Of a stretch of DNA of 43,437 bases, positions 14,811-35,820 are shown piece after piece (the first letter of the stretch is position 1; each line of letters begins with the position of its first letter). Below the pieces are notes generated by a model. That model saw only the letters and a list, made by a program, of their open reading frames with translations, was not told the DNA's origin and made no database searches. Position numbers and translations under genes: made by a program. The stretch lies in contig JAUYHF010000049.1 of NCBI GenBank assembly GCA_030690165.1, positions 1 through 43,437 on the forward strand, read 5' to 3'. The stretch is from Deltaproteobacteria bacterium. Lineage in GTDB: Bacteria; Desulfobacterota; GWC2-55-46; UBA9637.

Positions 14811-14829
14811 ATGTTTGTTGGATTGGAAT

Positions 14830-16231: not shown

Positions 16232-16253
16232 TGTGATGTCTCTGGCGTTTATG

Positions 16254-16280: not shown

Positions 16281-16298
16281 TAAGAGAGGATTAATCAG

Positions 16299-17177: not shown

Positions 17178-17208
17178 ATCCAAACTAATAATAAGGAGGT
17201 TAAAAGCG

Positions 17209-18090
17209 ATGAGAAAGATTTTGTTAGTGGTATTTTTGGTTTTAGCGGCATTTGTTTTCGGCTGCTATGAAAGGGATGCTGTTGCAGAGGTTACGATAAC
17301 TGCAGTGAAGGTTTCAGGGGATATCCCGCTTGACCCTGCCAATGTTGCATGGAGGCCGGTCCCTATTACATATGTTGATCTGAACTGCCAGGTTCTCGCA
17401 GAGCCCAAGAACATGAATTGCGCTACAAGGGTTGTAGAGGTAACCGCTCTTACAAACGGCAAGGAGCTTGCCGTAAGGCTTAGATGGAGCGACCAGTCAA
17501 AGGATGAATTGAATATTGTCCATGAGCAATACAGGGATGCCGCAGCCCTTGAATTCGCTGTTAAGGCTGTAACCCCAGGCGAGGAGCCAGCATACACAAT
17601 GGGGAATTCCGGTGATATGGTAAACATATGGCACTGGAAGGCAGAGTGGCAGAAAGACGGCGCCAGAAGGCAGGACATGGAGGATGTATATCCCAATATG
17701 TCGGCAGACTGGTATGTGGACGAGCAGCCGGACGGCAAGATATCATATCATGACAGACAGGGAAAAAACTTAGGCTCATTTGACCCTGCTGCTTACAGCC
17801 ATAATATATTTGCCCAGGTTGATTTAAGGCATTCACCTGTGGAAGATTTAAACGCAGAGGGATTTGGTTCTCTCACCACCCAGAAGAGCCAGGATGTAGA
17901 TGGATATGGGACATGGGATAAAAACGGCTGGAGTGTCGTGTTTAAGAGAACCCTTACCGACAAGGATGCAAATGATGTGCAGTTTGGCACCGGTAAATTC
18001 CCGATTGCATTTGCAGTATGGGATGGCAGCAACGCCGAGAGGGACGGACTTAAGTCCATATCGCAGTGGAACTATATTGAGATAAAGTAA
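17209..18090 (+). CDS. nxrC: NxrC-like heme b subunit (ethylbenzene dehydrogenase gamma-type domain), probable lipoprotein
   Basis: 293 residues from ATG 17209, chosen because AAGGAGGT lies 9 bases upstream. An upstream in-frame start would run into the chaperone gene. The N-terminus MRKILLVVFLVLAAFVFGC is a signal peptide with a possible lipobox (VFGC, Cys at residue 19), suggesting membrane anchoring. The rest resembles the heme b gamma subunit of type II enzymes (EbdC, NarI-independent Nxr gamma). It includes MGNSGDMVNIWHWKAEW at mid-protein and AFAVWDGSNAERDG near the end. Met and Lys residues in this fold ligate heme b in relatives. It would pass electrons between NxrB and cytochromes c. 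Confidence 0.8.
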   Translation: MRKILLVVFLVLAAFVFGCYERDAVAEVTITAVKVSGDIPLDPANVAWRPVPITYVDLNCQVLAEPKNMNCATRVVEVTALTNGKELAVRLRWSDQSKDELNIVHEQYRDAAALEFAVKAVTPGEEPAYTMGNSGDMVNIWHWKAEWQKDGARRQDMEDVYPNMSADWYVDEQPDGKISYHDRQGKNLGSFDPAAYSHNIFAQVDLRHSPVEDLNAEGFGSLTTQKSQDVDGYGTWDKNGWSVVFKRTLTDKDANDVQFGTGKFPIAFAVWDGSNAERDGLKSISQWNYIEIK

Positions 18091-18114
18091 GTAAAGCATT
18101 TTTCAAAGCATTAT

Positions 18115-18164
18115 GTCCTGAGGGGCTTAATATTTTGCCTATAAAGTCCCTCAGGGCATTTTTG
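18115..18164 (+). terminator. Rho-independent terminator of the nxr operon
   Basis: GTCCTGAGGG (18115-18124) pairs with CCCTCAGGGC (18148-18157), allowing one G-T pair, and is followed by ATTTTTG. It ends the nxrA-nxrC unit 25 bases after the last stop. Confidence 0.75.
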
Positions 18165-18203
18165 TTTATACCACACTGACCCGAAAAAGGATAAAGGACA
18201 AAA

Positions 18204-19991
18204 ATGAAAACAACCCTTTTATTTCCCCCCTCATGGCATCCATCCCAGCCCTATTTAAGCCTTCCGGCGCTGACCGGATTTTTAAGAAGGGAAGGGGTTG
18301 ATGTTACACAGAGAGATATTAACATAGAGTTTTTAGAGGTTCTCCTTAACAAGGACAATCATGAGTATTTTTTAGAAAGGATAGCTAACAGGCTTTCTAA
18401 GAGGACCCCTACAGCCACAGGAGAAAAAGAAGATTACAGTAGCCTTATAAACGCACTCGAAGAGATACCTGTTTTTGCCAGGAAACTGGATGAAGCAAAG
18501 GCTGTCTTACGAGGCGAGGGTTTTTATGATTCTAACCAATATATGGAAAGCCTCGGTAATATCGGCAAATGGCTTAACCTGATATCTCATGCGTATTACC
18601 CTTCGGAATTAACGCTTGTCGGCAATAACCTGACCAACTACTCTGTCTACTCATCAAAGGATGTCTTTGAGGCAATAAATAATGAAAAGGAAAACATCTT
18701 CCTTGACATATTCAGAAAGCACTTTCTAAAATCAATCCTTGCGGACGCCCCGGGACTTGTAGGCATATCCGTTACATCCACATCGCAGATAATACCAGCC
18801 TTTACAATGGCAAGGCTTATAAAAGAGGCAAAAAAGGATATCCACATAACAATCGGCGGCGGCGTCTTTACAAGACTCATAGATAATATATTCAAACAAG
18901 ATGCCCTCTTCTCGTTTATAGATAGTTTTATAGTCTATGAGGGTGAGCATGCCCTCCTTACGCTGATACGCGAGCTTGAAGATAAAAGGGATTTTACCAA
19001 GGTCCCGAATCTTGTTTACAGACATAATGGAAGGACGGCAATGAACGAGCCATTGATAGTGGAGGATGTAGACTATCTCCCCACGCCTGATTACGACGGT
19101 TTTCCCTTATCGCTTTATTTTACGCCGAAATTGGTTCTCCCGGTGCAGACCTCGCGGGGGTGTTATTATAAAAAGTGCGCATTCTGCAACCTCCATGTTG
19201 ACCAGATGGTATTCAGGACAAGAAAGGTTGATACGGTTGTGGAGGATATTAAAAAGCTGTCGCAGAAATACAATACAAAATATTTTTTCATAACCGACGA
19301 GGCAATGCCGCTTCCTACCCTTAAGAAATTTTCAACCAGGATTATAGAGGATAAGATTGACATAAAATGGATAACCGGCATGAGATTTGAGAATAAACTA
19401 GACGCAGGGCTTATAGAAAAGGCGTCAAAGGCAGGGTGTCTTAAATTTGTATTCGGCCTGGAGTCGTCCAATCAAAGGGTGCTTGACATGATGAAAAAGG
19501 GGATACAGAGGGAGACCGTTGACAGGATTATTAAAGACTGCCTTAAAAAGGAGATGGCAATACATGTTTATCTTATTACAGGCTTTCCAACCGAGACCAG
19601 GGATGAGGCCATTGAATCAGTGGATTACATTTTAAACAACGAGACCCTTGTAAATTCTTTAGGGTTTTCCTGCCAGCCGTCGCTCTTTGAGCTTGAAAAG
19701 TCGTCTCCAATCATGGATTTGCCGCCATCTTACGGCATTACCAAGATTATGGAGCCGAAGGGGCATGACCTAAGCCTCGGCTACCGTTATGAAGTTGACA
19801 AGGGTATGACGCCTAAAGAGGCAGAAGAGACATATAACCAGATAATGGATAAGACATATGAAAAGCTCTCCCCCTTCCCCTTTACCTACTCCATGTCTGA
19901 CGGGTTATTATATATTGCAAGGTCTAAAGGCGAAGGGATTTCTGCCCAGGCTGCAGAGGCAGAGGGTCAAAAAGAAACAACAGTGTCTTAG
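18204..19991 (+). CDS. Radical SAM protein with N-terminal B12-binding-like domain
   Basis: 595 residues. The N-terminal part (about 1-290) has the LLFPPSW..PYLSLPAL opening and the LVGISVTS and ITIGGGVFT segments of cobalamin-binding radical SAM proteins. The radical SAM core has Cys320, Cys325 and Cys328 in SRGCYYKKCAFCN. That is the Cx4Cx2C spacing of a known subgroup, preceded by PVQTSRG, with later motifs GLESSNQRVLDMM and ITGFPTET. A terminator separates it from the nxr genes and no strong promoter is visible. Many relatives methylate or rearrange unactivated carbons; the substrate here is unknown. Cofactor or peptide modification for the neighbouring respiratory proteins is only a guess. 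Confidence 0.8.
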   Translation: MKTTLLFPPSWHPSQPYLSLPALTGFLRREGVDVTQRDINIEFLEVLLNKDNHEYFLERIANRLSKRTPTATGEKEDYSSLINALEEIPVFARKLDEAKAVLRGEGFYDSNQYMESLGNIGKWLNLISHAYYPSELTLVGNNLTNYSVYSSKDVFEAINNEKENIFLDIFRKHFLKSILADAPGLVGISVTSTSQIIPAFTMARLIKEAKKDIHITIGGGVFTRLIDNIFKQDALFSFIDSFIVYEGEHALLTLIRELEDKRDFTKVPNLVYRHNGRTAMNEPLIVEDVDYLPTPDYDGFPLSLYFTPKLVLPVQTSRGCYYKKCAFCNLHVDQMVFRTRKVDTVVEDIKKLSQKYNTKYFFITDEAMPLPTLKKFSTRIIEDKIDIKWITGMRFENKLDAGLIEKASKAGCLKFVFGLESSNQRVLDMMKKGIQRETVDRIIKDCLKKEMAIHVYLITGFPTETRDEAIESVDYILNNETLVNSLGFSCQPSLFELEKSSPIMDLPPSYGITKIMEPKGHDLSLGYRYEVDKGMTPKEAEETYNQIMDKTYEKLSPFPFTYSMSDGLLYIARSKGEGISAQAAEAEGQKETTVS

Positions 19992-19996
19992 GAGAC

Positions 19997-20025
19997 TTGA
20001 CTTCGTCTATATTAAGGCCTAAATT
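19997..20025 (+). promoter_or_regulatory. Putative sigma-70 promoter for the NHL-HExxH-mrp-ferredoxin operon
   Basis: TTGACT (19997-20002), 17 bases, TAAATT (20020-20025), with the NHL gene starting 42 bases further. The -10 matches at four of six positions. Confidence 0.35.
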
Positions 20026-20067
20026 ATCAATTGAATAAACAATCAGATAACAGGAGGTAACAAAGAT

Positions 20068-21456
20068 ATGTCAATAAGAGAAAAAAGGCATAAGGAATAC
20101 TGGAAACCAGAAGAACCTGTGGTTGTACAGGAAGATCCCAAGGCAGCAGCGGCGGCAGCAGAGGAGGAGGCAAAAAAACCCAAGATAACAATAGAGGTTG
20201 AAGGTGGCGCCAAATGGACTACCTCAATGGATATTATGCTTCTTATCTCTGCCAAAGAGGAAAGGGGTTTTGGGATTGCAGGATATTTTGTTTCAGAGGA
20301 TAAGACCCCGCCGACAACAAACTCAAAATGGGTTGTCATACCCCAGAGTTACCCATTAGCCACCTTTTACTCAACAACGATTGGATATACATTAGACCCA
20401 AAAGACGGGATGAAGACCATCTATGTGTGGTGCAGGGATGGGGAGTGGAATGTCTCAACTGCGGCTGTTGTTACTATACTTTTAACCTCATACGAATTTA
20501 TCAAAAAATGGGGCCAGCCGGGCACCGGTGCGCTGGAGTTTACTGCGCCATCTGCAATTGCACAAGGCCAGGACAACAGTTTTTATATTGTTGACACAGA
20601 TAATCACAGGGTCCAGGTATTTGATAAGGATTTTAATTTTATCAGACAATTGGGCGAAGGCAGAGGCAAGACCGATGGAAAGTTTTATTACCCAAGGGGT
20701 GTAGCAACAGACGCATCATCAGGGGATGTATATGTAGTGGATTCCGGAAATAACCGGATACAGAAATTCAGCGCCAAAGGAAACTTTATTAAGCAATGGG
20801 GCAATGTCGTAAAACCTGTGGAAGAAAAGAAGCCCGGTGAGATGTCATACAGTGACGGCAATGAAACCACTTTTAGCCGGGGTGGAGATCCCAGTGTGGA
20901 GCTCTACGACCCGTTAAATGCAGTGGTTGACAAGAATGGGAATTTATTTGTTGTGGATTCCGGCAATCATAGAATCAAGAAATACGACAAAGAAGGCACA
21001 CTGCTTTTAGCATGGGGGATTAACGGGAGCCTTGACGGCATGTTGCATTATCCATCTGATATTGAGGTAGATGATTCGCAGACTGTATACGTCTCTGACA
21101 TGGGCAATAATCGTATCCAGAAATTCGACAAAGAGGGAAAGTTTATCGGGAAATGGGGTAGAAAGGGGACAGGTGATACAAATCTTAAATTGCCGTTAGG
21201 CATAGCAATCGACGCCTCAGGACACCTGTATGTGGCGGATTCCGGCAACCATCGGGTCCATAAATTTGACAAAGACGGTAATTTTATAGACGGCTTTGGC
21301 TTAACAGGCGCCGGCGAAGGCGAATTCAATGCCCCGGTCTTTGTTGTAACCGACAAAGAGGGATATATCTATGTCCTGGACAGAACTAATGCAACAGTGC
21401 AGAAATTCAAGTATGTGCCGCGGCCAAAAGAGGAACAAACTAATAATAAGGGGTGA
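20068..21456 (+). CDS. NHL-repeat beta-propeller protein
   Basis: 462 residues. After a charged, alanine-rich N-terminus (about 1-40) and an Ig-like beta region (about 40-145) come six NHL repeats. Each carries a variant of P-x-G-x-A-x-D and VDSGNNRIQKF (for example VVDSGNNRIQKF and VADSGNHRVHKF). NHL repeats build a beta-propeller used for protein or ligand binding. No signal peptide or lipobox is visible, so the protein appears cytoplasmic unless exported by a partner. ATG 20068 has a good ACAGGAGGT site. It begins a tight gene run (six bases to the next gene). The function is unknown; a scaffold for assembly of the respiratory complex is inference. Confidence 0.85.
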   Translation: MSIREKRHKEYWKPEEPVVVQEDPKAAAAAAEEEAKKPKITIEVEGGAKWTTSMDIMLLISAKEERGFGIAGYFVSEDKTPPTTNSKWVVIPQSYPLATFYSTTIGYTLDPKDGMKTIYVWCRDGEWNVSTAAVVTILLTSYEFIKKWGQPGTGALEFTAPSAIAQGQDNSFYIVDTDNHRVQVFDKDFNFIRQLGEGRGKTDGKFYYPRGVATDASSGDVYVVDSGNNRIQKFSAKGNFIKQWGNVVKPVEEKKPGEMSYSDGNETTFSRGGDPSVELYDPLNAVVDKNGNLFVVDSGNHRIKKYDKEGTLLLAWGINGSLDGMLHYPSDIEVDDSQTVYVSDMGNNRIQKFDKEGKFIGKWGRKGTGDTNLKLPLGIAIDASGHLYVADSGNHRVHKFDKDGNFIDGFGLTGAGEGEFNAPVFVVTDKEGYIYVLDRTNATVQKFKYVPRPKEEQTNNKG

Positions 21457-21462
21457 GAAAAT

Positions 21463-22458
21463 ATGGCTATAACTATATTATACGACACTAAATTAACAGA
21501 GGCGGTAGTGCGCCAGGAGGTAGACAAAAAGGAGCGGGCGGGTGATTTAAGCCTTATGGAGGAATACCATAAAGAGGTTGACCCCATATACGATATTGAC
21601 GATGTTATAGACAGGGAAGAGGAGTTTGACAAACTATACGAAAAGTTTTTTTTAAACAACCTCGGCTACGAGAAGGTGATAAAAGAGGTCTTTGATGAAT
21701 TCCCTTTTTTAAACGAGAAGATAAGCGATATATACATTAATATGGACCTTATGAGGGAAGAGGCCAATTTAATGAAAAAGGACCCTGACGAGCCTGGCAA
21801 TTTAAGAAAAATAAAATTTAAGATGAGGCCTGAGATATTTGACGACAAAAATGAACTGAGAAAGTCCATAAGACACGAACTTATGCATGTTAAGGATATG
21901 TTTGATGACGATTATGGCTATGATATAAAGGTTCCTGCCGGCCTTAATACTACAGAGGAAAACTTTTTAAGGGATAGATACAAGATATTGTGGGATATAT
22001 ATATTGACAGCCGCCTTATAAAGGAAGGCAAAGAAACCATGGAGACCAAGGAGAAGAGGTTTGCATGGTTTAGCGGCATATACAGGAAGCTTCCAAATGA
22101 GCAGAAGGTCGTTATGTTTGACAACTTCTGGAATAAGGAGAAGATTACCCATAAAGAGATACTGGATATGGCGGCCGACATGATGCAGGCGGTGCCGTTA
22201 TTGGGTGGGGATGCCACTGATGCAGAATTGGAAAAGGAGAAGCAAACCTACTGGTCAGGCAGGCCCTGTCCATTATGTAAATTTCCTACCTATAAGTGGG
22301 CAGAGGATGTTCAGCTTCAGGATGAAAAGGCAAAGAAACTGCAAAATGCCATAAAGGCGGATTTCCCAAAGTGGACGGTAGAAGAAGGCCTGTGTGAAAG
22401 GTGCGCAGAGCTTTATAAATTTAATGTAGAGGAAGATGAAAGGGAAGCTAATTTATAA
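21463..22458 (+). CDS. Unknown protein with HExxH motif and two CxxC pairs
   Basis: 331 residues, a family I do not recognise. An HExxH zinc-protease motif is at residues 138-142 (RHELMHVKDMFDDD), followed by a helix LWDIYIDSRLIKEG at about 176-189 whose acidic residues could supply a further metal ligand. A C-terminal zinc ribbon is suggested by Cys269-x2-Cys272 (CPLC) and Cys311-x2-Cys314 (CERC). The protein is acidic, with no signal peptide or membrane segment. It starts six bases after the NHL gene and is followed by an Mrp ATPase and a ferredoxin. A maturation protease or metal-dependent assembly factor is possible but unproven. Confidence 0.8.
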   Translation: MAITILYDTKLTEAVVRQEVDKKERAGDLSLMEEYHKEVDPIYDIDDVIDREEEFDKLYEKFFLNNLGYEKVIKEVFDEFPFLNEKISDIYINMDLMREEANLMKKDPDEPGNLRKIKFKMRPEIFDDKNELRKSIRHELMHVKDMFDDDYGYDIKVPAGLNTTEENFLRDRYKILWDIYIDSRLIKEGKETMETKEKRFAWFSGIYRKLPNEQKVVMFDNFWNKEKITHKEILDMAADMMQAVPLLGGDATDAELEKEKQTYWSGRPCPLCKFPTYKWAEDVQLQDEKAKKLQNAIKADFPKWTVEEGLCERCAELYKFNVEEDEREANL

Positions 22459-22511
22459 ACCCGGACAACAATGGTAACATATGGGCAAAGGGCTGGAGGT
22501 AGATAGATAAA

Positions 22512-23396
22512 ATGGCTTGTATACGTCTTTATTCATGCAGTTTATGCGATAATCAGGAGGCTTGCAAGGAAGATAAGGAAGCCCACGATAAAACTATTAT
22601 TGCGGACAGGATGGCCAAGGTTAAGCATAAGGTGCTTGTCATGAGCAATAAAGGCGGCGTGGGAAAGAGCACAGTCTCTGCAAATCTTGCGGCATCCCTT
22701 GCAAAGAAGGGATATAAGGTTGGTATTGCCGACGCTGATATACATGGTCCAAATATCCCTAAGATGTTTGGGGCTGAAGGTAAGAGGCTCAGGATAACGG
22801 ATGCCGGCATACAGCCTTATGAGGCATTTAACTTAAAGATTGCCTCTATAGCCTTTCTCATGGAGGGGACAGATGAACCAATTGTCTGGAGGGATGTTTG
22901 GAAATACGATTTCCTCCAGCAGTTATTTGGGTCATTTAACTGGGGTGAACTTGACTACCTGATTGTTGATCTGCCTCCTGGAACCGGCAACGAATCTATA
23001 ACTACGATAGAACTCGTTAACAAGGTGGGCGGGGTTGTGATAGTTACCACGCCGCAGGATGTGGCGCTTTTAGACTCAAGGAGGTCTATTACCTTTTCCA
23101 AAATAAACAATCTTCCTATAATTGGAATCATAGAAAATATGGCCGGTCTCACATGTCCGCATTGTGGCAAGGATGTAGAGGTATTCAAGATAGGCGGCGG
23201 TGAAAGGGCGGCAGTAGAAATGGGGGTTCCCTTTTTAGGCAGGATACCTATAGACCCAATGATAGCTGTGAAGGCTGACAGCGGCGAGCCTTATATAATT
23301 GCCTGCCCGGATTCGCCGGCAGGAGAGATATTTCAGGAGATTGTGGATAAGTGTGATAAATTTGTAAATAGTAATGTAGTTAATGTAATGTCATAA
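22512..23396 (+). CDS. mrp: Mrp/NBP35-type Fe-S cluster carrier ATPase
   Basis: 294 residues of the Mrp/ApbC/NBP35 P-loop family, which binds and transfers [4Fe-4S] clusters in the cytoplasm. The deviant Walker A SNKGGVGKST is at 45-54, VDLPPGTGN at about 152-160, and the cluster-binding Cys215-Pro-His-Cys218 lies in LTCPHCGKD. An N-terminal extension adds Cys9, Cys12 and Cys18 (CSLCDNQEAC), reminiscent of the NBP35 N-terminal cluster. It lies between the HExxH protein and the ferredoxin. A dedicated role in loading Fe-S clusters of NxrA/NxrB or the ferredoxin fits the context. Confidence 0.88.
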   Translation: MACIRLYSCSLCDNQEACKEDKEAHDKTIIADRMAKVKHKVLVMSNKGGVGKSTVSANLAASLAKKGYKVGIADADIHGPNIPKMFGAEGKRLRITDAGIQPYEAFNLKIASIAFLMEGTDEPIVWRDVWKYDFLQQLFGSFNWGELDYLIVDLPPGTGNESITTIELVNKVGGVVIVTTPQDVALLDSRRSITFSKINNLPIIGIIENMAGLTCPHCGKDVEVFKIGGGERAAVEMGVPFLGRIPIDPMIAVKADSGEPYIIACPDSPAGEIFQEIVDKCDKFVNSNVVNVMS

Positions 23397-23416
23397 TTTG
23401 TTCGGGGTGGATTTTA

Positions 23417-24034
23417 ATGGAAAAAGAAAGATTATCTGACAGGAGGCAATTCTTTAAAGAGACCTTTGTAACTGTTGCAAGCTATGCAACAGAATTGTTG
23501 CATAAGGAAGATAAGAAATCAGATAAAAAGCATAAAAAGATTGTTTATCTGCGTCCGCCTGGCGCAGTGGCGGAAAGTGAGTTTATTTCCCTTTGCACAA
23601 GGTGTGATGAATGTATAAAGGTATGCCCTTATCAGTGCATAGGATATGCTGACTCAGATACCGGGTTAGGCACCCCTGTAATAGTGGCAAGGGTTTCAGC
23701 CTGTAGATTATGTTCAGACTTTTCATGTATAACGGCTTGTAAGGGCGGCGCATTGAAACCTGTTAATAATATGAGAGATGTAAAGATGGGGGTGGCAGTT
23801 ATTAATAAGAAAAGGTGTCTTGATTATGCTGAGGAGAAGTTCTCAGCCTGTCAGCAATGCTATAGACAGTGCCCCTTGAAGGACGAGGCTTTATACCTTG
23901 ATGATGACTATAGACCTGTTTTAAGGGCTGAAAAGTGTGTAGGGTGTGGCATATGTGAAAATATTTGCCAGGCTGTAAACTCTCCTGGCGCCATAAGTAT
24001 AACCCCTGCTCAAAAATTAATTCTTACTCAATAA
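23417..24034 (+). CDS. NapG/MauM-like ferredoxin with four [4Fe-4S] motifs
   Basis: 205 residues. Four cysteine groups are visible: CTRCDECIKVCP, CRLCSDFSCITAC, CLDY...CQQCYRQCP and CVGCGICENICQ. This is the NapF/NapG/MauM pattern of electron-transfer ferredoxins. The N-terminus SDRRQFFKETFVTVASYATELL resembles a Tat signal with twin Arg at residues 8-9, so a periplasmic location is likely although the hydrophobic stretch is weak. It lies 20 bases after mrp and ends the run. In Nap systems such proteins link the quinol pool to periplasmic nitrate reductase; here it may exchange electrons with the NxrABC or cytochrome modules. Confidence 0.85.
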   Translation: MEKERLSDRRQFFKETFVTVASYATELLHKEDKKSDKKHKKIVYLRPPGAVAESEFISLCTRCDECIKVCPYQCIGYADSDTGLGTPVIVARVSACRLCSDFSCITACKGGALKPVNNMRDVKMGVAVINKKRCLDYAEEKFSACQQCYRQCPLKDEALYLDDDYRPVLRAEKCVGCGICENICQAVNSPGAISITPAQKLILTQ

Positions 24035-24053
24035 AAAATAAGTAAAAAAAAGC

Positions 24054-24082
24054 TTGACAAGGATATTTTAAACTGTTATAGA
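24054..24082 (+). promoter_or_regulatory. Sigma-70 promoter for the small-protein/CydA-like/cytochrome genes
   Basis: A perfect TTGACA (24054-24059), a 17-base spacer and TATAGA (24077-24082). It lies 20 bases after the ferredoxin stop and would transcribe through the small plus-strand genes to the CydA-like gene. It would also run antisense over the minus-strand small gene at 24108-24215. Confidence 0.5.
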
Positions 24083-24107
24083 AGACCAACTTATTTGAAA
24101 ATGTTTT

Positions 24108-24215
24108 TTATCTGGTGAAGTAATAGATAAGCAGAAAGGTTATTACAACCACATTGACAACAAGTCCAATGAATATAAGATAATCAGCAGGTGTTGTTTT
24201 CCAGTTTTTAAACAT
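24108..24215 (-). CDS. Small single-span membrane protein (35 residues), probably leaderless
   Basis: The minus-strand frame encodes 35 residues starting MFKNWKTTPADY, with a hydrophobic helix from about residue 13 to 32 and ending YYFTR. It has no ribosome-binding site. However, a strong promoter (TTGACA, 17 bases, TATACT) ends only seven bases before the ATG, which predicts a leaderless mRNA. I recognise no family. Small helices of this kind accompany oxidase complexes, and it sits beside the CydA-like locus but on the opposite strand. It could be a chance frame, though the promoter and clean topology argue for a gene. Confidence 0.45.
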   Translation of the reverse strand: MFKNWKTTPADYLIFIGLVVNVVVITFLLIYYFTR

Positions 24216-24222
24216 GGAAGAC

Positions 24223-24251
24223 AGTATAGTATTAAAAGATAAGTTTGTCAA
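24223..24251 (-). promoter_or_regulatory. Near-consensus sigma-70 promoter on the minus strand
   Basis: Read on the minus strand: TTGACA (24251-24246), 17 bases, TATACT (24228-24223). The predicted start coincides with the ATG of the 35-residue frame at 24215. It faces away from the plus-strand small gene at 24275. Confidence 0.5.
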
Positions 24252-24274
24252 ATTAAATTTGAGGTGAGGTTAAG

Positions 24275-24376
24275 ATGCAGGAAAAAAAGTCAGGTAAGGC
24301 AGGCCCGGCCGTATTTATAATAGTATTAATAACCACATTGATATTCTTTTATTGGATTCTTACCAAGGCGCAGTAA
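24275..24376 (+). CDS. Small single-span membrane protein (33 residues)
   Basis: ATG 24275 follows a GAGGTGAGG ribosome site and encodes MQEKKSGKAGPA, then a hydrophobic helix of about 17 residues, ending ILTKAQ. This layout (short basic N-terminus in the cytoplasm, one helix) suits a CydX- or CcoQ-like accessory subunit. It is followed by a hairpin repeat, a second small membrane protein and the CydA-like gene. No family is recognised. Confidence 0.55.
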   Translation: MQEKKSGKAGPAVFIIVLITTLIFFYWILTKAQ

Positions 24377-24382
24377 AAAAAT

Positions 24383-24437
24383 CTCAAACCTAAAGGTTTG
24401 AGTTGCAGCATGGAGTAACTCAAGGCTTTAGCCTTGA
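24383..24437. repeat. Twin palindromes, CTCAAACC family
   Basis: CTCAAACC-TAAA-GGTTTGAG (24383-24402) and TCAAGGC-TTTA-GCCTTGA (24420-24437) are two perfect hairpins separated by 17 bases. A related pair of sequences occurs at 34328 between rnfD and rnfG, so this is a dispersed repeat. Confidence 0.7.
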
Positions 24438-24458
24438 AAATAGCAAAGGAGAAAGGCC

Positions 24459-24572
24459 ATGAAAACAGTTATCAGTTTTATCATTGCCCTGGCAATAGTC
24501 GCGGTATATTTTATAGGGCTTGATGCAGCGCTCTTAAAGCTCCAGGGATTGTCGCCAATATATAAACCTTAG
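24459..24572 (+). CDS. Small single-span membrane protein (37 residues)
   Basis: ATG 24459 is preceded by AAAGGAGAAAGG and encodes MKTVISFIIALAIVAVYFIG followed by a short tail rich in Leu and ending PIYKP. The N-terminal hydrophobic helix with a periplasmic or cytoplasmic tail resembles CydX/YnhF-type oxidase micro-subunits in size only. It lies 73 bases before the CydA-like gene on the same strand, which makes an accessory role there plausible. No family assignment. Confidence 0.55.
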   Translation: MKTVISFIIALAIVAVYFIGLDAALLKLQGLSPIYKP

Positions 24573-24645
24573 AGGCTTTTGTTTAGATAGCTATCAGGGG
24601 TGGTATGCCTGTCTTACTAAAAAATAACTTAAAGGAGCAGAGACG

Positions 24646-26523
24646 ATGAAATTATTTTCAGTTGTTATCAGTAAAGGCCTCTTTAAAAGGGGGTTTATAG
24701 CAGCCCTGTTCTTTTTTGCTTTTCTATTTGCCCTCCCGCTTTTAAAACCAGCAAAATTTTTTCTGATTGGAACTAATACGGCACATGCCTCTGAACAGGC
24801 TGTCCAGGCTGAAAAACCCGCAGATGCAGAGGCAAAGCCGGAAGCCAAAAAAGAAGAATACCAGCCGGCGCCAAAACTTAAAGCAAGCGATTATCCTCAG
24901 AACAAGTATATAAACGGCAGGGTTATGGCATGGCTTACAGCGCAGTTGCATCTCTGGTTCGCTGCGTTTGTCCTTGCCGTTCCCATCTTCGTCTTTATTA
25001 TAGAGGCCATTGGTATGGCCACAAAGGACGAGCGGTATGACAAGATGGCCTATGAATTTATTAAGGTAAGCCTCACAGCGTATTCCGTAACTGCCGTATT
25101 AGGCGGTCTTCTCTTATTTACATTAATAATATTTTATCCTGATTTCATAAAATACATGTCAGGTGTCTTCAGTTCAACCATGCTTGCCTATGCCTTTCTT
25201 TTCTTTGCAGAGAGTCTATGTCTCTACATCTATTATTATGGCTGGCATGCAATGGAGACAGGATTCAGCAAGTGGATGCATCTGACCATAGGATGGATGT
25301 TGAATGTGGTAGGTACAACGATGATGCTCCTTACCAGCGCGTGGGCTTCATTTATGATGGCGCCGCATGGTGTAAGCGCCACCGGCGTATTTGAGGGGAA
25401 TGTATGGGCTGCCATACATAACCATCTGTGGAATCCGTTAAACCTCCATAGATTTGTGGCAAATGTCGCATTCGGCGGCGGGGTCGTCGGCGCATACGCG
25501 GCCTATAAATTTTTAAGCGTGCAGACAAAAGAAGAAAAGGCCCACTATGACTGGATGGGCTATACGGCAAACTTCATAGCCATAGCAGGCCTGCTCCCGC
25601 TCCCCTTTGCAGGTTACTGGCTTGTGGCAGAGATATACGCAACTAGCCAGCAAATGGGCATAACCCTTATGGGCGGCTCATTTGCATGGTGGTTTATCAT
25701 GCAGGCAATTCTTATCGGCGGACTCTTTCTTTCTGCCAATTATTATCTGTGGTGCGGGATGGAAAGAACCAAGGGCGCGGAGAGGTACATCAAATACACC
25801 AAATATATTGCCTTTGTCATAGTTATGTGTTTCCTTGTATGGTTTACGCCTCATACATTGGTTCTGAAACCAGGGGAATTAAAGGCCCTCGGCGGACCAT
25901 ATCATAAATATCTTGGTCCACTGGGAATTATGCCTGCCAAGAATACGGCTGTCAACATAATGCTGATATTTACCTTCCTGAGTTTCACGCTCTACAAGCG
26001 CTGCAGTAAGATTGCCACAGTTTCATGGGCTCCTCTGGGTAACACCATACAGATGGCAATATTTACGGCCGCCGTAATCAATGTAGTCATATGCGGCGTC
26101 TATTTCGGCTACTTTACCAATACTGTATATAAGGTCGCGTCTTCGGTCCTGCAGGTTTCATCCACCCTTACGGTGCTTATATCAGTTACAATTATAGATA
26201 TATTCATGTTCAAAGGCGCTAAGGAAGCAGCGCCGCTTGAATGGGGCAAGATGCCTGACAGGAGTCAGTATGCCTTGTTCGTTCTCGCAGTAACATTTAC
26301 ATGGCTCATGGGTCTTATGGGTTTTATACGGTCTGGCATACGACAGCACTGGCATGTGAACGGCGTATTCAGGGATGCTTCTCCTGACGCCTTTACCCCG
26401 ACCATTGGATATGGGGCGCGGGTAATATCCACGGGTGTTATTATATTCATGGCCATTATAATATTCATATTCTGGCTTGCCCAGTTTGGCGCGAAAAAGA
26501 GCTTTAAGGCAGCTAACCATTAA
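24646..26523 (+). CDS. Cytochrome bd-like (CydA-related) membrane protein
   Basis: 625 residues, with an N-terminal helix (about 15-31), a Lys/Ala/Glu-rich linker (50-90) and then many transmembrane helices. Similarity to CydA shows in QLHLWFAAFVLAVP (His102, position of the b595 ligand), FFAESLC (Glu190), KWMHLTIGWMLN (His212, position of a b558 ligand) and SAWASFMMAPHG. The quinol-oxidase signature AEVGRQPW is replaced by AEIYATSQQMG (about 328-338), and there is no CydB gene. This matches my recollection of the bd-like proteins proposed as oxidases in Nitrospira. Electron donor and activity are unknown. Ribosome site AAAGGAGCAG; cytochrome c genes follow. Confidence 0.78.
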   Translation: MKLFSVVISKGLFKRGFIAALFFFAFLFALPLLKPAKFFLIGTNTAHASEQAVQAEKPADAEAKPEAKKEEYQPAPKLKASDYPQNKYINGRVMAWLTAQLHLWFAAFVLAVPIFVFIIEAIGMATKDERYDKMAYEFIKVSLTAYSVTAVLGGLLLFTLIIFYPDFIKYMSGVFSSTMLAYAFLFFAESLCLYIYYYGWHAMETGFSKWMHLTIGWMLNVVGTTMMLLTSAWASFMMAPHGVSATGVFEGNVWAAIHNHLWNPLNLHRFVANVAFGGGVVGAYAAYKFLSVQTKEEKAHYDWMGYTANFIAIAGLLPLPFAGYWLVAEIYATSQQMGITLMGGSFAWWFIMQAILIGGLFLSANYYLWCGMERTKGAERYIKYTKYIAFVIVMCFLVWFTPHTLVLKPGELKALGGPYHKYLGPLGIMPAKNTAVNIMLIFTFLSFTLYKRCSKIATVSWAPLGNTIQMAIFTAAVINVVICGVYFGYFTNTVYKVASSVLQVSSTLTVLISVTIIDIFMFKGAKEAAPLEWGKMPDRSQYALFVLAVTFTWLMGLMGFIRSGIRQHWHVNGVFRDASPDAFTPTIGYGARVISTGVIIFMAIIIFIFWLAQFGAKKSFKAANH

Positions 26524-26600: not shown

Positions 26601-27476
26601 ATGAAGACCTTTTTAAAGATAGTGATTTTCAGCTTAGGAGTAACATGCGTCTATGCGTTTTTTGCAAACATAGTTATTCCGCAGGTTAGGCCAGCGCCGC
26701 CCCCTGTAGAGGAAAAGCTTGATTTAGGTTCCATGACTATGGAGCAGTTTGTAGGACTTGGAGAGAAGGTATTCAACGATATATGCACATTGTGCCATAA
26801 CCCTGTGGGAGGGAGGGCGCCCCTCATGATTCAGGCAGGTAAGGACGGCCCGCCTATTGGAGCCAGGGCTGAGGAAAGGGTAAAAGACCCAAGATATAAG
26901 GGTAAGGCAAAGAATGGCGAGGAATATATACGGGAGTCTGAGAATGAACCCTCTGCCTTTGTTGTTCCGGGTTATGGTGTCAAGGGTACCAATGACACCG
27001 TGAGCCCAATGCCTGTTACTACCAGCGGCGCCATTGGTTTAACAGACGCGAAAGTGGATGCTGTTATTGCCTATTTCCAGACAAATGCGGGTGTCCCTGT
27101 TACTGTTAAGATACCGACAGGGGCTCCGGCTCCTGCCAGTACAGAAGCGGCTGCCCCGCCTGCTGCGCCGGCAAAGACCCCGGAAGAGTTTGTAGCAAAG
27201 TACGGTTGCGGCGTCTGCCACAAGGTAGCTGGCCAGCAGGGTCCAATATGTCCTGATCTTATGCACATAGGCGCAGTAGCAAAGACACGGATTAAGGATA
27301 AAGATTACAAGGGTAAGGCAAAGGATGCCGCTGGATATATAGCAGAGTCTATTTTAGAACCAGGTACATTTGTAGCGCCTGGTTTTCCTCCGGGTGTCAT
27401 GCCCCAGGATTTCGGGGCTAAAATCCTTGCGCAGGAGTTTAATATGATGGTTAATTTTCTATCAAATTCCAAATAA
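26601..27476 (+). CDS. Membrane-anchored di-heme cytochrome c
   Basis: 291 residues. An N-terminal hydrophobic segment (about 5-27) acts as signal or anchor. Two class I cytochrome c domains follow, with heme sites Cys62-x2-Cys65-His66 (CTLCH) and Cys203-x2-Cys206-His207 (CGVCH), joined by an Ala/Pro-rich linker (about 174-192). Possible axial methionines are in SPMPVT and GVMPQDF. The two domains share RIKD/RVKDP..YKGKAK segments, pointing to an internal duplication. It lies 77 bases after the CydA-like gene and would deliver or accept electrons there. Confidence 0.88.
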   Translation: MKTFLKIVIFSLGVTCVYAFFANIVIPQVRPAPPPVEEKLDLGSMTMEQFVGLGEKVFNDICTLCHNPVGGRAPLMIQAGKDGPPIGARAEERVKDPRYKGKAKNGEEYIRESENEPSAFVVPGYGVKGTNDTVSPMPVTTSGAIGLTDAKVDAVIAYFQTNAGVPVTVKIPTGAPAPASTEAAAPPAAPAKTPEEFVAKYGCGVCHKVAGQQGPICPDLMHIGAVAKTRIKDKDYKGKAKDAAGYIAESILEPGTFVAPGFPPGVMPQDFGAKILAQEFNMMVNFLSNSK

Positions 27477-27558: not shown

Positions 27559-28320
27559 ATGAAGATACCAAGATTATTGCTGTTTGTAATTATCCTATCT
27601 GTTGCATACAGCGTATTTAAACTATTCGGGATTATAGTGAAACAACCAATCCCAACAAGTCTTGTGCAGATGTACATGTTTTTTGTTACGGTTATGAGCC
27701 TCTTGTGGATTACATCCACGGAAGAGGGTATGAATGGGCTTGTGGGACCGATAAAGGCTCTCATAGAAGACCCTAGTAAAAGGATATTGAGGAATATCGT
27801 GTTTCTTATTGTCCCGCTGCTTGGAGCAGGGATAACCTATGCGCAGTTAAGGCCCACCTACGAGGCGCCTGTGGAACTGCGGTCCATCCACCCTGCGCCG
27901 CCGTCTACAATTAAGGTATTTGGCAAGACATTTAATCTGATGACGTTGGAAAACCCTTATAGAAAGATAGAAAAGGAAGACCCTCAGAAATTTGCGCAGC
28001 TTGTCAAAGAGGGGGGAGAAGTATTTTTTAAAAATTGTTTCTACTGCCACGGCGATAAGCTGAACGGCAGAGGGCATTATGCGCATGGCCTTAATCCCAT
28101 TCCGGCTAATTTCACGGATGTGGGAACCATCGCTCAGCTGCAGGAATCGTTTCTATTCTGGAGGATCACAACGGGGGGACCTGGTTTGCCCAAAGAAGGG
28201 GCTCCATGGATATCTGCCATGCCTATCTGGCAGAATTTCCTGACAGAGGATGAGGTGTGGAAGGTTATACTCTTCCTATACAACTACACAGGGTATGTGC
28301 CGAGGTCATGGGAAAAATAA
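27559..28320 (+). CDS. Three-helix membrane-bound cytochrome c
   Basis: 253 residues from ATG 27559, which has GAGGAGGT eight bases upstream. A TTG start 18 bases earlier lies inside that ribosome site and is rejected. Hydrophobic helices at about 5-27, 33-51 and 78-94 anchor a periplasmic c-type domain with Cys160-x2-Cys163-His164 (CFYCHGDKLNGRG) and a likely axial Met in ISAMPIW. Its place between two other cytochromes c and behind the CydA-like gene suggests a membrane electron-transfer partner of that protein. Confidence 0.85.
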   Translation: MKIPRLLLFVIILSVAYSVFKLFGIIVKQPIPTSLVQMYMFFVTVMSLLWITSTEEGMNGLVGPIKALIEDPSKRILRNIVFLIVPLLGAGITYAQLRPTYEAPVELRSIHPAPPSTIKVFGKTFNLMTLENPYRKIEKEDPQKFAQLVKEGGEVFFKNCFYCHGDKLNGRGHYAHGLNPIPANFTDVGTIAQLQESFLFWRITTGGPGLPKEGAPWISAMPIWQNFLTEDEVWKVILFLYNYTGYVPRSWEK

Positions 28321-28392: not shown

Positions 28393-29931
28393 ATGAAGAA
28401 AAAACTCCTAATTTTAGTTGCCTTAAGCATTATATTGGTTTCAATCCCGGCTATTGCGGCCCAGGGCAATAAAGAAAACGGGAAGGTAATATACGACAAA
28501 AAATGCTGGTGGTGCCACGGTGAGAACGGCGCAGGCGACGGGCCTGCTGCCAATTTTTTAAGTCCCCCGCCAAGGGATTTTACGGCAGGCTGGTTTAAAT
28601 TTAAGTCAACACCGTTTGATGAGCTTTTTCCCGCCGATGAAGACATCTTCAGGGTGATAAGCGGAGGCACGAATCACGCTTCTTCATGGGGTGGTCTGTC
28701 AGGCACAGCCATGCCAAACTGGGACGATAAGCTTAAGGAGCAGGAGAGGTGGGACTTGGTTGCGTATATTACTGATTCACTCGGCCATCTGGAGAAACCT
28801 AAAAAACCGTCAATTGATTATAAGAATCAGGTAAAGACATCAAAGGAAAGCATTGGAAAGGGCAAAGAAATCTTCCAAAAGTTGTGCGTAGAGTGCCACG
28901 GAGAGGAAGGGAAGGGCAGTGGCACAAAGAAATTAAAGGACGACCTCGGCTTCAGGGAATGGCCGAGAAATCTTACAAAACCATGGACATTCAGGATTAA
29001 TAACGATCCCAAAGAAATATATACCCGCATATCCGTTGGTATCCCTGGAACGCAGATGCCGTCATTTGCAGATCCAGCCAGCAAAAAGACACTTTCTGAC
29101 GAAGAGAGATGGAATGTTGCAAACTATGTAAACTCCATCGGTGATGATACAAAAAAGCCGAATGACGCGGATACTGTCCTGAAGGCCATAAGGCTTGAAG
29201 GGGAATTACCTGACAAGCCTGATGATCCGAGATGGAAGGAAGCACAACCCACAAGTTTCTATCTCATCCCCCAGATAATTGCAAAGGAGAGGTTTTTTAC
29301 GCCCACGATAGATGGCATTACTTCCAGGGCATTTTTTAATGATAAGGAGATTTCAATACTGCTTGAATGGGATGACAGGACAAAGAGCATACCTGGGGAT
29401 GAAAAGGCAAAAGAGCTTGCAGAAGGCAGCGATGTGTTTGAGGACAGCGTGGCTCTGCAATTTTCCGTAACAATACCTGAAGAGATGGAAAAGCCGTATT
29501 TCGGCATGGGTGACAGCGCAAAGCCCGTCAATATCTGGCAGTGGAAAGGCGGGAAAAAAGACTCACCCGAGAGCGTGAAACTTATCAATGCCAACGGCTT
29601 CCAGAAGATAGAACAGAGAGACGCTGCAAAGGCAGGTTTGAAGGCAAGCAGCGCCTACAGTAACGGCACATGGCGGGTTGTTATGAAGAGGCCGCTTACA
29701 ACTGAAGAGAAAGACAAGGACATACAGTTTGTAGAGGGTAAATTCATACCTCTGGCATTTGCCGCATGGGATGGCAGCAACGGGGAAACAGGCTCAAAGC
29801 ATGTCCTGTCAACATGGTACTGGATACAGATGAAACCCGTAACATCCAATACCGTATATATTATTCCTGTTATTGTAGGATTGTTAGTTTTTGGCGGCGA
29901 GCTTTTACTTATCAGGAAACCAAGAAAGTAG
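28393..29931 (+). CDS. Di-heme cytochrome c fused to an NxrC-like heme b domain
   Basis: 512 residues. Signal peptide at 1-23 (ending IPAIAA), heme c sites Cys38-x2-Cys41-His42 (CWWCHGENGAGDG) and Cys165-x2-Cys168-His169 (CVECHGEEGKGSG). An ethylbenzene dehydrogenase gamma-type domain follows (about 265-485) with MGDSAKPVNIWQWKGG and AFAAWDGSNGETG, and a C-terminal helix (about 488-506) ends in basic residues. The third domain is the same type as the separate NxrC-like gene at 17209. A three-heme wire from an NxrB-like partner to the membrane is the natural reading. It closes the cytochrome cluster. Confidence 0.85.
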   Translation: MKKKLLILVALSIILVSIPAIAAQGNKENGKVIYDKKCWWCHGENGAGDGPAANFLSPPPRDFTAGWFKFKSTPFDELFPADEDIFRVISGGTNHASSWGGLSGTAMPNWDDKLKEQERWDLVAYITDSLGHLEKPKKPSIDYKNQVKTSKESIGKGKEIFQKLCVECHGEEGKGSGTKKLKDDLGFREWPRNLTKPWTFRINNDPKEIYTRISVGIPGTQMPSFADPASKKTLSDEERWNVANYVNSIGDDTKKPNDADTVLKAIRLEGELPDKPDDPRWKEAQPTSFYLIPQIIAKERFFTPTIDGITSRAFFNDKEISILLEWDDRTKSIPGDEKAKELAEGSDVFEDSVALQFSVTIPEEMEKPYFGMGDSAKPVNIWQWKGGKKDSPESVKLINANGFQKIEQRDAAKAGLKASSAYSNGTWRVVMKRPLTTEEKDKDIQFVEGKFIPLAFAAWDGSNGETGSKHVLSTWYWIQMKPVTSNTVYIIPVIVGLLVFGGELLLIRKPRK

Positions 29932-30460: not shown

Positions 30461-31687
30461 TTATTTTCCAGCCCTTTTTCTAAGTTCAGCCATAATCTCA
30501 GGGGTAATTTCTTTTAAACATTTTTCCCTTGCGTATCTTTCCACGCCCTTTTTAACCATGCCCATGAGAAAGGTAGGCACTTTTGAGAGCCTTTCCTGCG
30601 CTTCTTTTGTCCAGAGTATTTCTTCTGCCCCTCTGACTCTTTGACTCTTTGACTCTTTGACTCTTTGACCCTCCGGTTCATATTCGCACCACGGGTCTTC
30701 TCCCATAATACTGGAAGTCGCTGCAAGCGCCCTTGCCCTGCATCCGCCGCAGGCCTCTTTATAATCACATTCCCTGCATCTCCCCTCATAATTTGGATTT
30801 CTGAGAGACTGAAATACCGGCGATGTTGTCCATATCTGAGACAGGCTTGCCTCCATAAGATTTCCCACTTTTGTCGGCATATACGGGCATGCCGTTACAT
30901 CGCCTTTAGGGGTAATCCTGAAATATCCTGTGCCTGCAATGCAGCCGCTTGTTGCGCCTTTTAAAAGCTGGCTTTCAGGATTAAGCTTATGAGCGATCCT
31001 CAGAAAATGCGGCGCGCACCTTGCCCTTACCATCATTCTCCCTTCATAATCTTTTTCTGCCTTTACAAGATATGTCAGGGTTTCCTCATATTGTTTGGGT
31101 GTTATGTCTGTCATTTCCTGTCCCCTGCCTGTGCAGACAAGAAAGAATATGTTTGCTGCCCTGGCCCCTTTTTTATACGCAAATTCTATTATATCCGGTA
31201 TTTCTGAATAATTGTCCTTTGTTACAGTCACCTGAATCTGAAAATCAAGGTTGTATTTTTTTAAGATACCCATTCCAGCAATGGTCTTTTCCCAAGCCCC
31301 TTCCACTCCCCTGAACCTGTCGTGATATGATGGGCCTATTGAATCAAGGCTTATCCCAACGCCCTTGACACCGCTTTCTATCATTTTTTCTACAGTCTGA
31401 GCATCAATGAGCGTTCCATTTGTTCCAAGCACAACCATCAACCCTTTTTTCGCTGCATAGGAAAAAAGATCAAAGCAGTCATCCCTGAGCAGAGGCTCGC
31501 CGCCTGTAAAGATGAGCATTGCCTGCGGGTTGACAGCAGTTACCTCGTCTATGACCCTTTTTGCGTCATTAGTAGATAGCTCGTCGTTCCCATGTTCCAA
31601 CTCTGATGCGTCAAGGTAGCAGTGCCTGCACCTCAGGTTGCATCTTTTTGTTATATTCCAGGATATGAGAAAAGGTATAAAATCCAT
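30461..31687 (-). CDS. Radical SAM/SPASM protein fused to a PCP_red domain (heme-pathway type)
   Basis: 408 residues. The radical SAM motif is Cys16-x3-Cys20-x2-Cys23 (RCNLRCRHCYLD), with FTGGEPLL and a SPASM region with cysteines in CIAGTGY, CRECDYKEACGGC. This is the layout of NirJ/AhbD-type heme-synthesis enzymes. The C-terminal 50 residues (WTKEAQERLSKVPTF... onward) form a PCP_red-like domain. A linker rich in Lys/Ser/Gln/Arg is encoded by four exact CTCTTTGA octamers (30637-30668 on the plus strand). The start is ATG at 31687 with AAGGAAG upstream on the minus strand. A role in heme synthesis fits the cytochrome-rich surroundings, but related SPASM enzymes modify peptides. Confidence 0.8.
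   Translation of the reverse strand: MDFIPFLISWNITKRCNLRCRHCYLDASELEHGNDELSTNDAKRVIDEVTAVNPQAMLIFTGGEPLLRDDCFDLFSYAAKKGLMVVLGTNGTLIDAQTVEKMIESGVKGVGISLDSIGPSYHDRFRGVEGAWEKTIAGMGILKKYNLDFQIQVTVTKDNYSEIPDIIEFAYKKGARAANIFFLVCTGRGQEMTDITPKQYEETLTYLVKAEKDYEGRMMVRARCAPHFLRIAHKLNPESQLLKGATSGCIAGTGYFRITPKGDVTACPYMPTKVGNLMEASLSQIWTTSPVFQSLRNPNYEGRCRECDYKEACGGCRARALAATSSIMGEDPWCEYEPEGQRVKESKSQRVRGAEEILWTKEAQERLSKVPTFLMGMVKKGVERYAREKCLKEITPEIMAELRKRAGK
30637..30668. repeat. Octanucleotide tandem repeat in coding sequence
   Basis: Four perfect copies of CTCTTTGA, preceded by a shorter CTCTGA. The unit is not a multiple of three, so gain or loss of one copy would shift the frame between the SPASM and PCP_red domains of the host gene. 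Confidence 0.9.
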
Positions 31688-31760: not shown

Positions 31761-31788
31761 TTGACAGTGTGGTAAATTTATGTATGAT
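31761..31788 (+). promoter_or_regulatory. Sigma-70 promoter of the rnf operon
   Basis: TTGACA (31761-31766), 16 bases, TATGAT (31783-31788), close to consensus. A start near 31795 leaves a leader of about 78 bases before the chosen rnfC start. It also rules out the in-frame ATG at 31780, which lies inside the promoter. Confidence 0.55.
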
Positions 31789-31872
31789 ACAAAAAATACA
31801 AAAAGACTTGACAAATATATCAAGGTTGATACCATCTTACATTATTTTATTTATTGGAAGTCAGAATATTTT

Positions 31873-33192
31873 ATGAGTTTAAAGACATTTAATCACGGCA
31901 TACATCCTTCTTATAATAAAGAGTTAACTCAAAGCAAAAAGATAGAGAAGGCATCCCTTCCATCTAAGGTTGTCATCCCTCTTCAACAGCACATTGGCGC
32001 CCCTTGCAAGCCGCTTGTTAAAAAGGGAGATACGGTAGCAGAGGGGCAGAAGATAGGCGAGACAACCACCTTTGTTACCGCCCCTGTCCATTCTTCAATC
32101 TCAGGAAAGGTTAAGGAAATAGAAAGACTCCCATATCCCGGCGGCGGCAAGGTCTTGTCTGTCATAATAGAAGGAGACGGGACAGTAAAGGATTGGGGGA
32201 GCGGGGACACAGACATTGAGCTTGAATCGCTCGCAAAGGAAGATCTAAGGAATATTATAAGAGAGGCCGGGATTGTAGGCATGGGCGGGGCTGCATTCCC
32301 TACGCATGTGAAATTAAGCCCGCCAAAGGGAAAAAGGATAGATAGCTTCATCCTCAATGGATGTGAGTGCGAGCCGTATCTGACATCCGATCATAGGCTG
32401 ATGCTTGAAGAGCCTGAAAAGGTCTTGTGGGGTATGAAGGCCATGATGAAGGCAGTAGGGGTTGAGAACGGCTTTATAGGCATAGAGGAAAATAAATCTG
32501 ATGCAATAGATGCCCTTGAGAGAGTAACCAGAGGCAGCAATATAAAGGTTGTTGCATTGAAAACAAAGTATCCGCAGGGCGCTGAAAAGATGCTTGTAAA
32601 GGCCGTTATAGACAGGAAGGTGCCTGTCGGCAAGCTCCCCATGGATGTGGGCTGTGTGGTAAACAATGTCGGGACAGCGTTTGCTGTTTATGAGGCAGTC
32701 AAATACAAGAAGCCTTTGATTGAAAGGGTTATAACTGTAAGCGGAAACGGTGTAAGAGAGCCGAAGAACCTCCTTGTCCGGATAGGGACAAGCTTTGAAG
32801 ATGTTTTAAACCAGTGCGGCGGGATAACAGGGGAAGGCGAAAAAGAGGTTTTAAACGGCGGCCCGATGATGGGGATTGCCCAGACAACCCTTGAAGCGCC
32901 TGTAATAAAAGGCACATCAGGCATAACAGTCCTAACGGGTAAAGAGATAAAGCCGTTTAAATACGATCCGTGCATAAGATGCGCAAGCTGTGTTGAAGTT
33001 TGTCCTGTAAACCTCATGCCGTATAAGTTAGGCGATTTAGGGCGGCTTTACAGACTGGATGAATTCAAGGCATGGGGCGGCATGGTCTGCATAGAATGCG
33101 GCTGCTGCTCTTATACATGCCCCTCTAAAAGGCCGCTCCTGCACTGGATACGGGTAGGAAAGGTTAAGATAAGGGAGAGGGAGAAGGTGTAA
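31873..33192 (+). CDS. rnfC: Rnf complex subunit RnfC (NADH-side, Fe-S)
   Basis: 439 residues from ATG 31873, the usual RnfC length, beginning MSLKTFNHGIHPSYNKE as in relatives. RnfC is the peripheral subunit of the Rnf ferredoxin:NAD+ oxidoreductase that binds NADH/FMN. An N-terminal barrel-sandwich region (about 30-110), the Rossmann-like GMGGAAFPTHVKL and NGCECEP motifs, and two ferredoxin motifs CIRCASCVEVCP and CIECGCCSYTCP near the end are visible. It is first in the order C-D-G-E-A-B. The ribosome site is weak (GGAAG, 13 bases away). Confidence 0.92.
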   Translation: MSLKTFNHGIHPSYNKELTQSKKIEKASLPSKVVIPLQQHIGAPCKPLVKKGDTVAEGQKIGETTTFVTAPVHSSISGKVKEIERLPYPGGGKVLSVIIEGDGTVKDWGSGDTDIELESLAKEDLRNIIREAGIVGMGGAAFPTHVKLSPPKGKRIDSFILNGCECEPYLTSDHRLMLEEPEKVLWGMKAMMKAVGVENGFIGIEENKSDAIDALERVTRGSNIKVVALKTKYPQGAEKMLVKAVIDRKVPVGKLPMDVGCVVNNVGTAFAVYEAVKYKKPLIERVITVSGNGVREPKNLLVRIGTSFEDVLNQCGGITGEGEKEVLNGGPMMGIAQTTLEAPVIKGTSGITVLTGKEIKPFKYDPCIRCASCVEVCPVNLMPYKLGDLGRLYRLDEFKAWGGMVCIECGCCSYTCPSKRPLLHWIRVGKVKIREREKV

Positions 33193-33196
33193 GTAC

Positions 33197-33292
33197 AAAT
33201 TGAAAAATGCAAAATGTAAAATGCAAATTTACAAGATAGAATTTTAAAAATTTTGCAATTTACAATTTGCAATTTGCATTTTTCGATGGAGC
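33197..33292. repeat. AT-rich imperfect palindrome R1, between rnfC and rnfD
   Basis: The left arm TTGAAAAATGCAAAATG and the right arm CAATTTGCATTTTTCGATGG are imperfect inverted copies built from GCAAATT/AATTTGC words. The unit ends in ATGGAGC. Two further copies occur at 35721 and 36401. Confidence 0.7.
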
Positions 33293-33309
33293 GTAATAAT
33301 TTAAAAGCT

Positions 33310-34326: not shown

Positions 34327-34327
34327 C

Positions 34328-34486
34328 TCAAACCTTTAGGTTTGATGGTCTCAAGGCTGAGGCGGGTTCAGGTTTGCAACCTGAACCCATAAGTTCGTGA
34401 TTTTGAGAGATGTGAAATATTCAGGAGCAGGTTACAAACCTGCTCCCGCAAAAGCCCCGTAAGAGACTGAAGGTCTTACGAGGCTT
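34328..34486. repeat. Cluster of four hairpins between rnfD and rnfG
   Basis: Four palindromes in 159 bases: TCAAACCT-TT-AGGTTTGA (34328-34345), GGGTTCAGGTT-TGC-AACCTGAACCC (34364-34388), GGAGCAGGTT-ACA-AACCTGCTCC (34424-34446), and AAGCCCCGTAAGA paired with TCTTACGAGGCTT (34452-34464 and 34474-34486, one mismatch). The first is related to the repeat at 24383. No gene fits in this 184-base gap. Confidence 0.8.
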
Positions 34487-34510
34487 GAGTTACAGAAAAA
34501 TGGGAGCAGA

Positions 34511-35718: not shown

Positions 35719-35720
35719 GG

Positions 35721-35812: not shown

Positions 35813-35820
35813 AAAGCGAC

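Follow-up and report, generated by a model that had tools for sequence, protein, structure and literature searches.

A CydB-less bd-like membrane protein encoded with cytochromes c and an alternative NxrC in a groundwater lineage labelled Deltaproteobacteria

The bd-like gene and its neighbours

The window, a 43,437-nucleotide stretch of DNA, carries at 24646–26523 on the plus strand an open reading frame for a bd-like (CydA-like) membrane protein of 625 residues, with about 13 transmembrane helices and an N-terminal signal or anchor. A reading made from the sequence only had called this gene CydA-like, and the assignment held. The frame is preceded by AAAGGAG, and the Pfam family Cyt_bd_oxida_I (PF01654) matches residues 92–325, the N-terminal half of the protein, with E 3.4e-22; no NCBIfam model was matched. 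The AlphaFold2 model, made with 43 homologues, has about 13 long helices (pLDDT 81.9, pTM 0.81). In a Foldseek comparison of this model with the PDB, CydA chains took all of the first ten places (E 2.6e-8 to 9.8e-6, probability 1.0) and CydB chains came after them. In the tree, the bd-like clade lies far from canonical CydA. The window protein clusters with proteins from the same genus and family, and homologues from Nitrospirota and Nitrospinota metagenome-assembled genomes (MAGs) fall in the same clade. A plasmid search with the bd-like protein as query gave no match.

Three cytochromes c had been noticed nearby, and they follow directly downstream on the same strand with two, one and two CxxCH motifs. 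The first (26601–27476) is a membrane-anchored diheme cytochrome c of 291 residues. The second (27559–28320) has N-terminal hydrophobic helices and one CxxCH; its start was placed at the ATG at 27559, which follows GGAGG, in preference to the TTG at 27541. The third (28393–29931) is the 'alternative NxrC', a 512-residue protein in which two cytochrome c domains and an EB_dh heme-b domain are joined to a C-terminal transmembrane helix. Alternative NxrC is co-inherited with the bd-like gene, being found in 32 of 33 genomes with that gene and in 0 of 7 without it. Most of 80 named contigs, drawn from several phyla, preserve the gene order of the module, which is kept in MAGs labelled Deltaproteobacteria, Nitrospirota, Nitrospinota and Alpha-, Beta-, Gamma- and Zetaproteobacteria.

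Further redox genes lie around this and related modules. An Rnf-type complex (RnfC, D, G, E, A and B-like) occupies 31780–37364 of the window, with genes for cytochrome c maturation beyond it (ResB from 38531). In seven to nine gammaproteobacterial loci (e.g. L079:15797–21649 and L080:9326–12605), an AioA-family molybdoenzyme, a Rieske protein and two MauG-type peroxidases, an iodate-reductase-like arrangement, stand just downstream of the module. Elsewhere in the genome of the window, a second alternative-NxrC-like protein (L159:7614–9047, G000:C7), 48% identical and with two heme c sites, precedes multiheme cytochromes and has no bd-like gene near it.

The small membrane proteins said to surround the gene were also found, upstream of it, as three predicted single-helix proteins. 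The nearest, sm2 (24459–24572, plus strand, 37 residues), has a strong Shine-Dalgarno sequence and the pattern LDxxLxxxQGLSxIxK; sm1 (24275–24376, plus strand, 33 residues) has AGPxxFxxxxxxxxFFYWxL; and sm3 (24108–24215, minus strand, 35 residues), which is divergent, has FIGLVVNxxVITFLLxYYF. Profiles grown from each were counted in 84 loci of the clade and 198 control chunks. Upstream of the bd-like gene, sm2 was found in 74 of the 84 loci against 0/198 controls, sm1 in 57/84 against 0/198, and sm3 in 46/84 (34 of these 46 on the minus strand) against 3/198. Upstream of paralogous 720-residue proteins the profiles gave no hit for sm1 or sm2 and one for sm3. In the cited literature on bd-like clusters we found no mention of these proteins, and the two or three conserved single-helix genes ahead of the bd-like gene are new here.

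Ligand slots and the quinol site

Residues were mapped by a profile-profile alignment against ten canonical CydA proteins, which covers residues 91–297 and on which the ligand assignments rest. His102, Glu189, His212 and His268 correspond to His19, Glu107, His126 and His186 of E. coli CydA, and the core residues are invariant across 43 aligned homologues. His102 and His212 had been proposed as retained heme-ligand positions. The first is indeed equivalent to His19, but the second aligns with His126, which is not the b558 ligand; the b558 histidine, His186, corresponds to His268. In canonical bd enzymes b558 is ligated by His and Met, and the other two hemes by His and Glu (PMC8951039). The E99 slot of the window protein holds an invariant tyrosine (Tyr182). 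In the C-terminal alignment, which is of low confidence, the M393 slot falls at about Gln503 and the E445 slot at Ser563. By alignment, then, two histidine sites are kept and the Glu and Met sites are lost, so that the heme sites are preserved only in part. The E445 slot is Ser in 32 of 34 members of the window-protein clade and Glu in the paralogues linked to alternative complex III, which suggests that the di-heme site of the window-type protein may be changed or absent.

The C-terminal half aligns weakly with canonical CydA and was tested in segments. Residues 525–590 match the canonical TM8-GRQPW profile far better (hhalign probability 54%, score 23.9, E 1.3e-4) than residues 255–345 do (probability 1.4%, score 14.1, E 0.036). 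By this test the GRQPW slot reads SGIRQHWHV (563–571). The sequence-only reading was thus right that GRQPW is missing, but not that AEIYATSQQMG (328–338) replaces it; that segment was ruled out despite the look-alike PLPFAGYWLVAE. The bd-like protein lacks both GRQPW and the Q-loop, the Q-loop region being helical with extra helices instead. The invariant His570 and the conserved His403 and His420 are candidates for other roles.

The proposal that the complex is fed by cytochrome c rather than by quinol fits the absence of the Q-loop, of GRQPW and of CydB, together with the fixed gene order with heme-c proteins, and the same has been proposed in the literature (PMC10839748, PMC12342949). The main rival reading is a quinone-linked electron gate, in which the core would connect the quinone pool with the cytochromes c of the periplasm and electrons would pass between the two (reverse electron flow), much like an alternative complex III and with no O2 chemistry. 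We consider it unlikely, though it is the strongest of the alternatives. A core that has kept the His186 equivalent but not the E99, M393 and E445 slots would suit such a gate, as would the presence of the cluster in anammox anaerobes; an alternative complex III-like role was suggested for the bd-like protein by Luecker et al. (PMC3578206). With the Q-loop and GRQPW gone, however, no quinone site is recognisable.

Partners, nxr genes and heme genes

No CydB (PF02322) was found in the genome of the window, which is rated 100% complete, or in 40 relatives of its class (41 genomes in all), while ten control genomes gave a positive signal in the same search. The earlier statement that no CydB is encoded is thus confirmed, and a canonical cydA paired with cydB elsewhere in the genome was looked for and not found. 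A bd-like gene is present in 34 of the 41 genomes. In 25 of these 34, including the one-contig genome G018, it is a single homologue with no other fragment, so that a CydAA' pair appears not to be general; this argues that the window subtype needs neither a CydA nor a CydB partner.

A second bd-like protein is nevertheless encoded in the genome of the window. It has 614 residues, is 36% identical to the window protein, and sits on G000:C47 behind an alternative complex III with ActD (Pfam), molybdopterin-type, FeS, two NrfD-like and cytochrome c subunits; multiheme and diheme cytochromes c follow it (L142:5822–16709). A Rieske/cytochrome b set lies on the opposite strand (L142:186–3584). A CydAA'-type heterodimer of the window protein with this paralogue, as proposed for OR-N oxidases, would draw on the occurrence of both proteins in one genome, on the proposed OR-N1/OR-N2 pairing (PMC10839748) and on the many alphaproteobacterial loci in which two modules stand about 8 kb apart. 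We regard it as improbable, since the paralogue has cytochromes of its own behind the alternative complex III, an arrangement described for OR-N5 enzymes in Nitrospirales (PMC12342949), and since most window-type genomes hold a single homologue. The paralogue has Glu in the E445 slot and lacks His403, His420 and the TM10-TM11 segment; its predicted structure reached pLDDT 71.9, and no claim made here rests on it. Of the two bd-like proteins of this genome, the paralogue is the one more likely to reduce O2.

Heme-copper oxidases are present in most relatives of the class, and in many of them an oxidase role for the window-type protein would for this reason be unneeded, which again suits the quinone gate. 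In the genome of the window itself, the search for heme-copper oxidases gave only a COX1-like protein of 136 residues. It is encoded at L023 (G000:C41) near a DUF542/ScdA-like protein, a ferredoxin and a NirK-like multicopper protein, and many class relatives have short COX1-like proteins of the same sort. Against the quinone gate, exchange between quinone and cytochrome c is already provided for in this genome by a bc-type complex and the alternative complex III.

The nxr genes lie outside the module, on the plus strand at 11340–18090: nxrA (11340–14810), nxrB (14903–16231), a TorD-like chaperone gene (16299–17177) and nxrC (17149–18090). NxrA matches the anammox NXR (PDB 7b04) end to end with 1704 bits, so that a genuine NXR operon of anammox/Nitrospira type occurs in this groundwater lineage. 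The bd-like gene had been described as next to nxr, which is true of its position, 6.5 kb downstream (18090 to 24646), but not of its distribution. The same NxrA is absent from the 40 class relatives, which give only incomplete, low-identity matches (best 1.2e-41 at 30%), and is thus found in 1 of 41 genomes against 34 of 41 for a bd-like gene, which 33 of the 40 relatives carry without it. Nearly all other loci among the 80 named contigs likewise have the module without nxr beside it, among them many from Proteobacteria. The nxr genes and the bd-like module are therefore neighbours, not one unit, and the suggested coupling to Nxr is not supported as a defining trait. A membrane anchor and electron exit dedicated to NXR, a nitrite oxidation module, has been proposed for Nitrospira (PMC6606698), and both the nearby nxr genes and the resemblance of alternative NxrC to the NXR gamma subunit would agree with it. 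As a general role it is largely refuted by the distribution and appears very improbable, whereas an NXR-specific use in this one organism is possible. The tree, in which the window protein sits among members of its genus and family, agrees with vertical inheritance of the module, and it is therefore likely that the nxr genes were acquired separately, probably by gene transfer. The host is possibly a nitrite oxidizer or a nitrate reducer of a new lineage.

Downstream of the module, on the minus strand at 30461–31687, lies a gene for a radical SAM/SPASM protein of NirJ2/AhbD type with a C-terminal PCP_red domain. It matched the NirJ2 and AhbD models with E 2.9e-104 and 3.7e-99, both under the curated cut-offs, and it is distinct from an ordinary AhbC/AhbD-like pair on contig C14. 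Orthologues stand 4.2–5.6 kb from the bd-like gene in 14 class genomes, and the gene is both clustered and co-inherited with the module (30/33 against 1/7 genomes, Fisher p 1.4e-4, uncorrected for relatedness). Of the 27 named contigs that extend about 9 kb to either side of the module, 20 carry the radical SAM gene and 21 encode a Usp+PCP_red protein; a protoporphyrinogen oxidase gene, usually adjoining the radical SAM gene, is present in 16. The Usp proteins near the module have one to four PCP_red domains. No paper linking radical SAM/PCP_red proteins to the bd-like module was found in the literature search. From this clustering and co-inheritance we infer a link to the function of the module. 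Our tentative suggestion, on which we would not rely, is that a special heme or tetrapyrrole is made or inserted for the complex by a dedicated cassette of radical SAM/PCP_red protein, Usp-(PCP_red)n and often protoporphyrinogen oxidase. The radical SAM gene may instead serve general heme supply. If the heme is indeed dedicated, the complexes would form a separate class of membrane reductases fed by cytochrome c, which have a cofactor pathway and small subunits to themselves and whose use extends well outside the nitrite oxidizers.

Proposed role and comparison with known systems

The reading we prefer, with a probability of roughly 0.5, is that of a terminal reductase fed by cytochrome c: a bd-like complex without CydB, linked to cytochrome c, with the window protein as its membrane core. 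Three proteins would carry electrons between the core and the periplasm: alternative NxrC with its c-c-b hemes, the diheme cytochrome c and the membrane-bound one. The high-spin heme of the core would reduce a small oxidant, for which O2 is the most likely candidate. CydX, CydS and CydH are small structural subunits of canonical bd enzymes, and the single-helix proteins may serve the complex in the same way. The complex would take electrons from any periplasmic donor of its host, with nitrite, by way of NXR, a donor in this genome only. For the window complex, the lack of a quinol site and the predicted periplasmic wire are established at the level of gene content and conserved residues. O2 as the substrate is inferred from the family and the literature, and is made less than certain by the lost ligand slots and by the occurrence of the cluster in strictly anaerobic anammox bacteria (PMC3578206).

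Bd-like proteins have been proposed as the terminal oxidase of some highly abundant nitrifiers; the cited literature reports no measured activity for any member of a bd-like cluster and demonstrates no function. The module proves to be widespread and independent of nitrite oxidation. At the level of the family the cytochrome c-fed interpretation is already published, for the OR-N reductases (PMC10839748, PMC12342949). Three points are new. The comparison separates the module from NXR and argues that it needs no CydA or CydB partner; it puts forward the small proteins as candidate subunits; and it ties the module to a radical SAM protein, a putative heme-tailoring enzyme whose gene is inherited along with it.

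With canonical CydAB(X) (PDB 6rko, 5doq) the window protein shares the TM1-TM5 fold, the equivalents of His19, Glu107, His126 and His186, and small single-helix proteins nearby, but it differs in having no CydB, Q-loop or GRQPW and in its E99, M393 and E445 slots. The OR-N5-type paralogue on G000:C47 likewise has cytochromes c nearby, whereas it stands behind ActA-F-like genes. With the OR-N family (Murali et al. 2021, as described in PMC10839748 and PMC12342949), the window complex shares the lack of CydB and of a quinol site and a presumed cytochrome c donor; this likeness is one of described traits, and a CydAA' partner is missing in most relatives. The complex is most likely of OR-N type, within the cytochrome bd superfamily.

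The closest counterpart is the cluster of bd-like_3, two cytochromes c and alt_NxrC_2 in Nitrospira moscoviensis, which is highly transcribed there (PMC6606698) and conserved in Nitrospina and anammox bacteria (PMC6606698, PMC3578206). The bd-like proteins of these clusters, from N. moscoviensis, N. gracilis and Ca. Kuenenia, resemble the window protein in their CydA-like N-terminal half, in having extra helices where the Q-loop would be, and in lacking quinol-site residues. Matched by description, their neighbours are also the same: a monoheme and a diheme cytochrome c and an alternative NxrC with two heme c and one transmembrane helix. The window differs in its host, an uncultured lineage, in the two or three single-helix genes and the radical SAM gene documented here, and in that the link to nxr is not general. 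The window protein is thus a member of the published set of bd-like protein, two cytochromes c and alternative NxrC.
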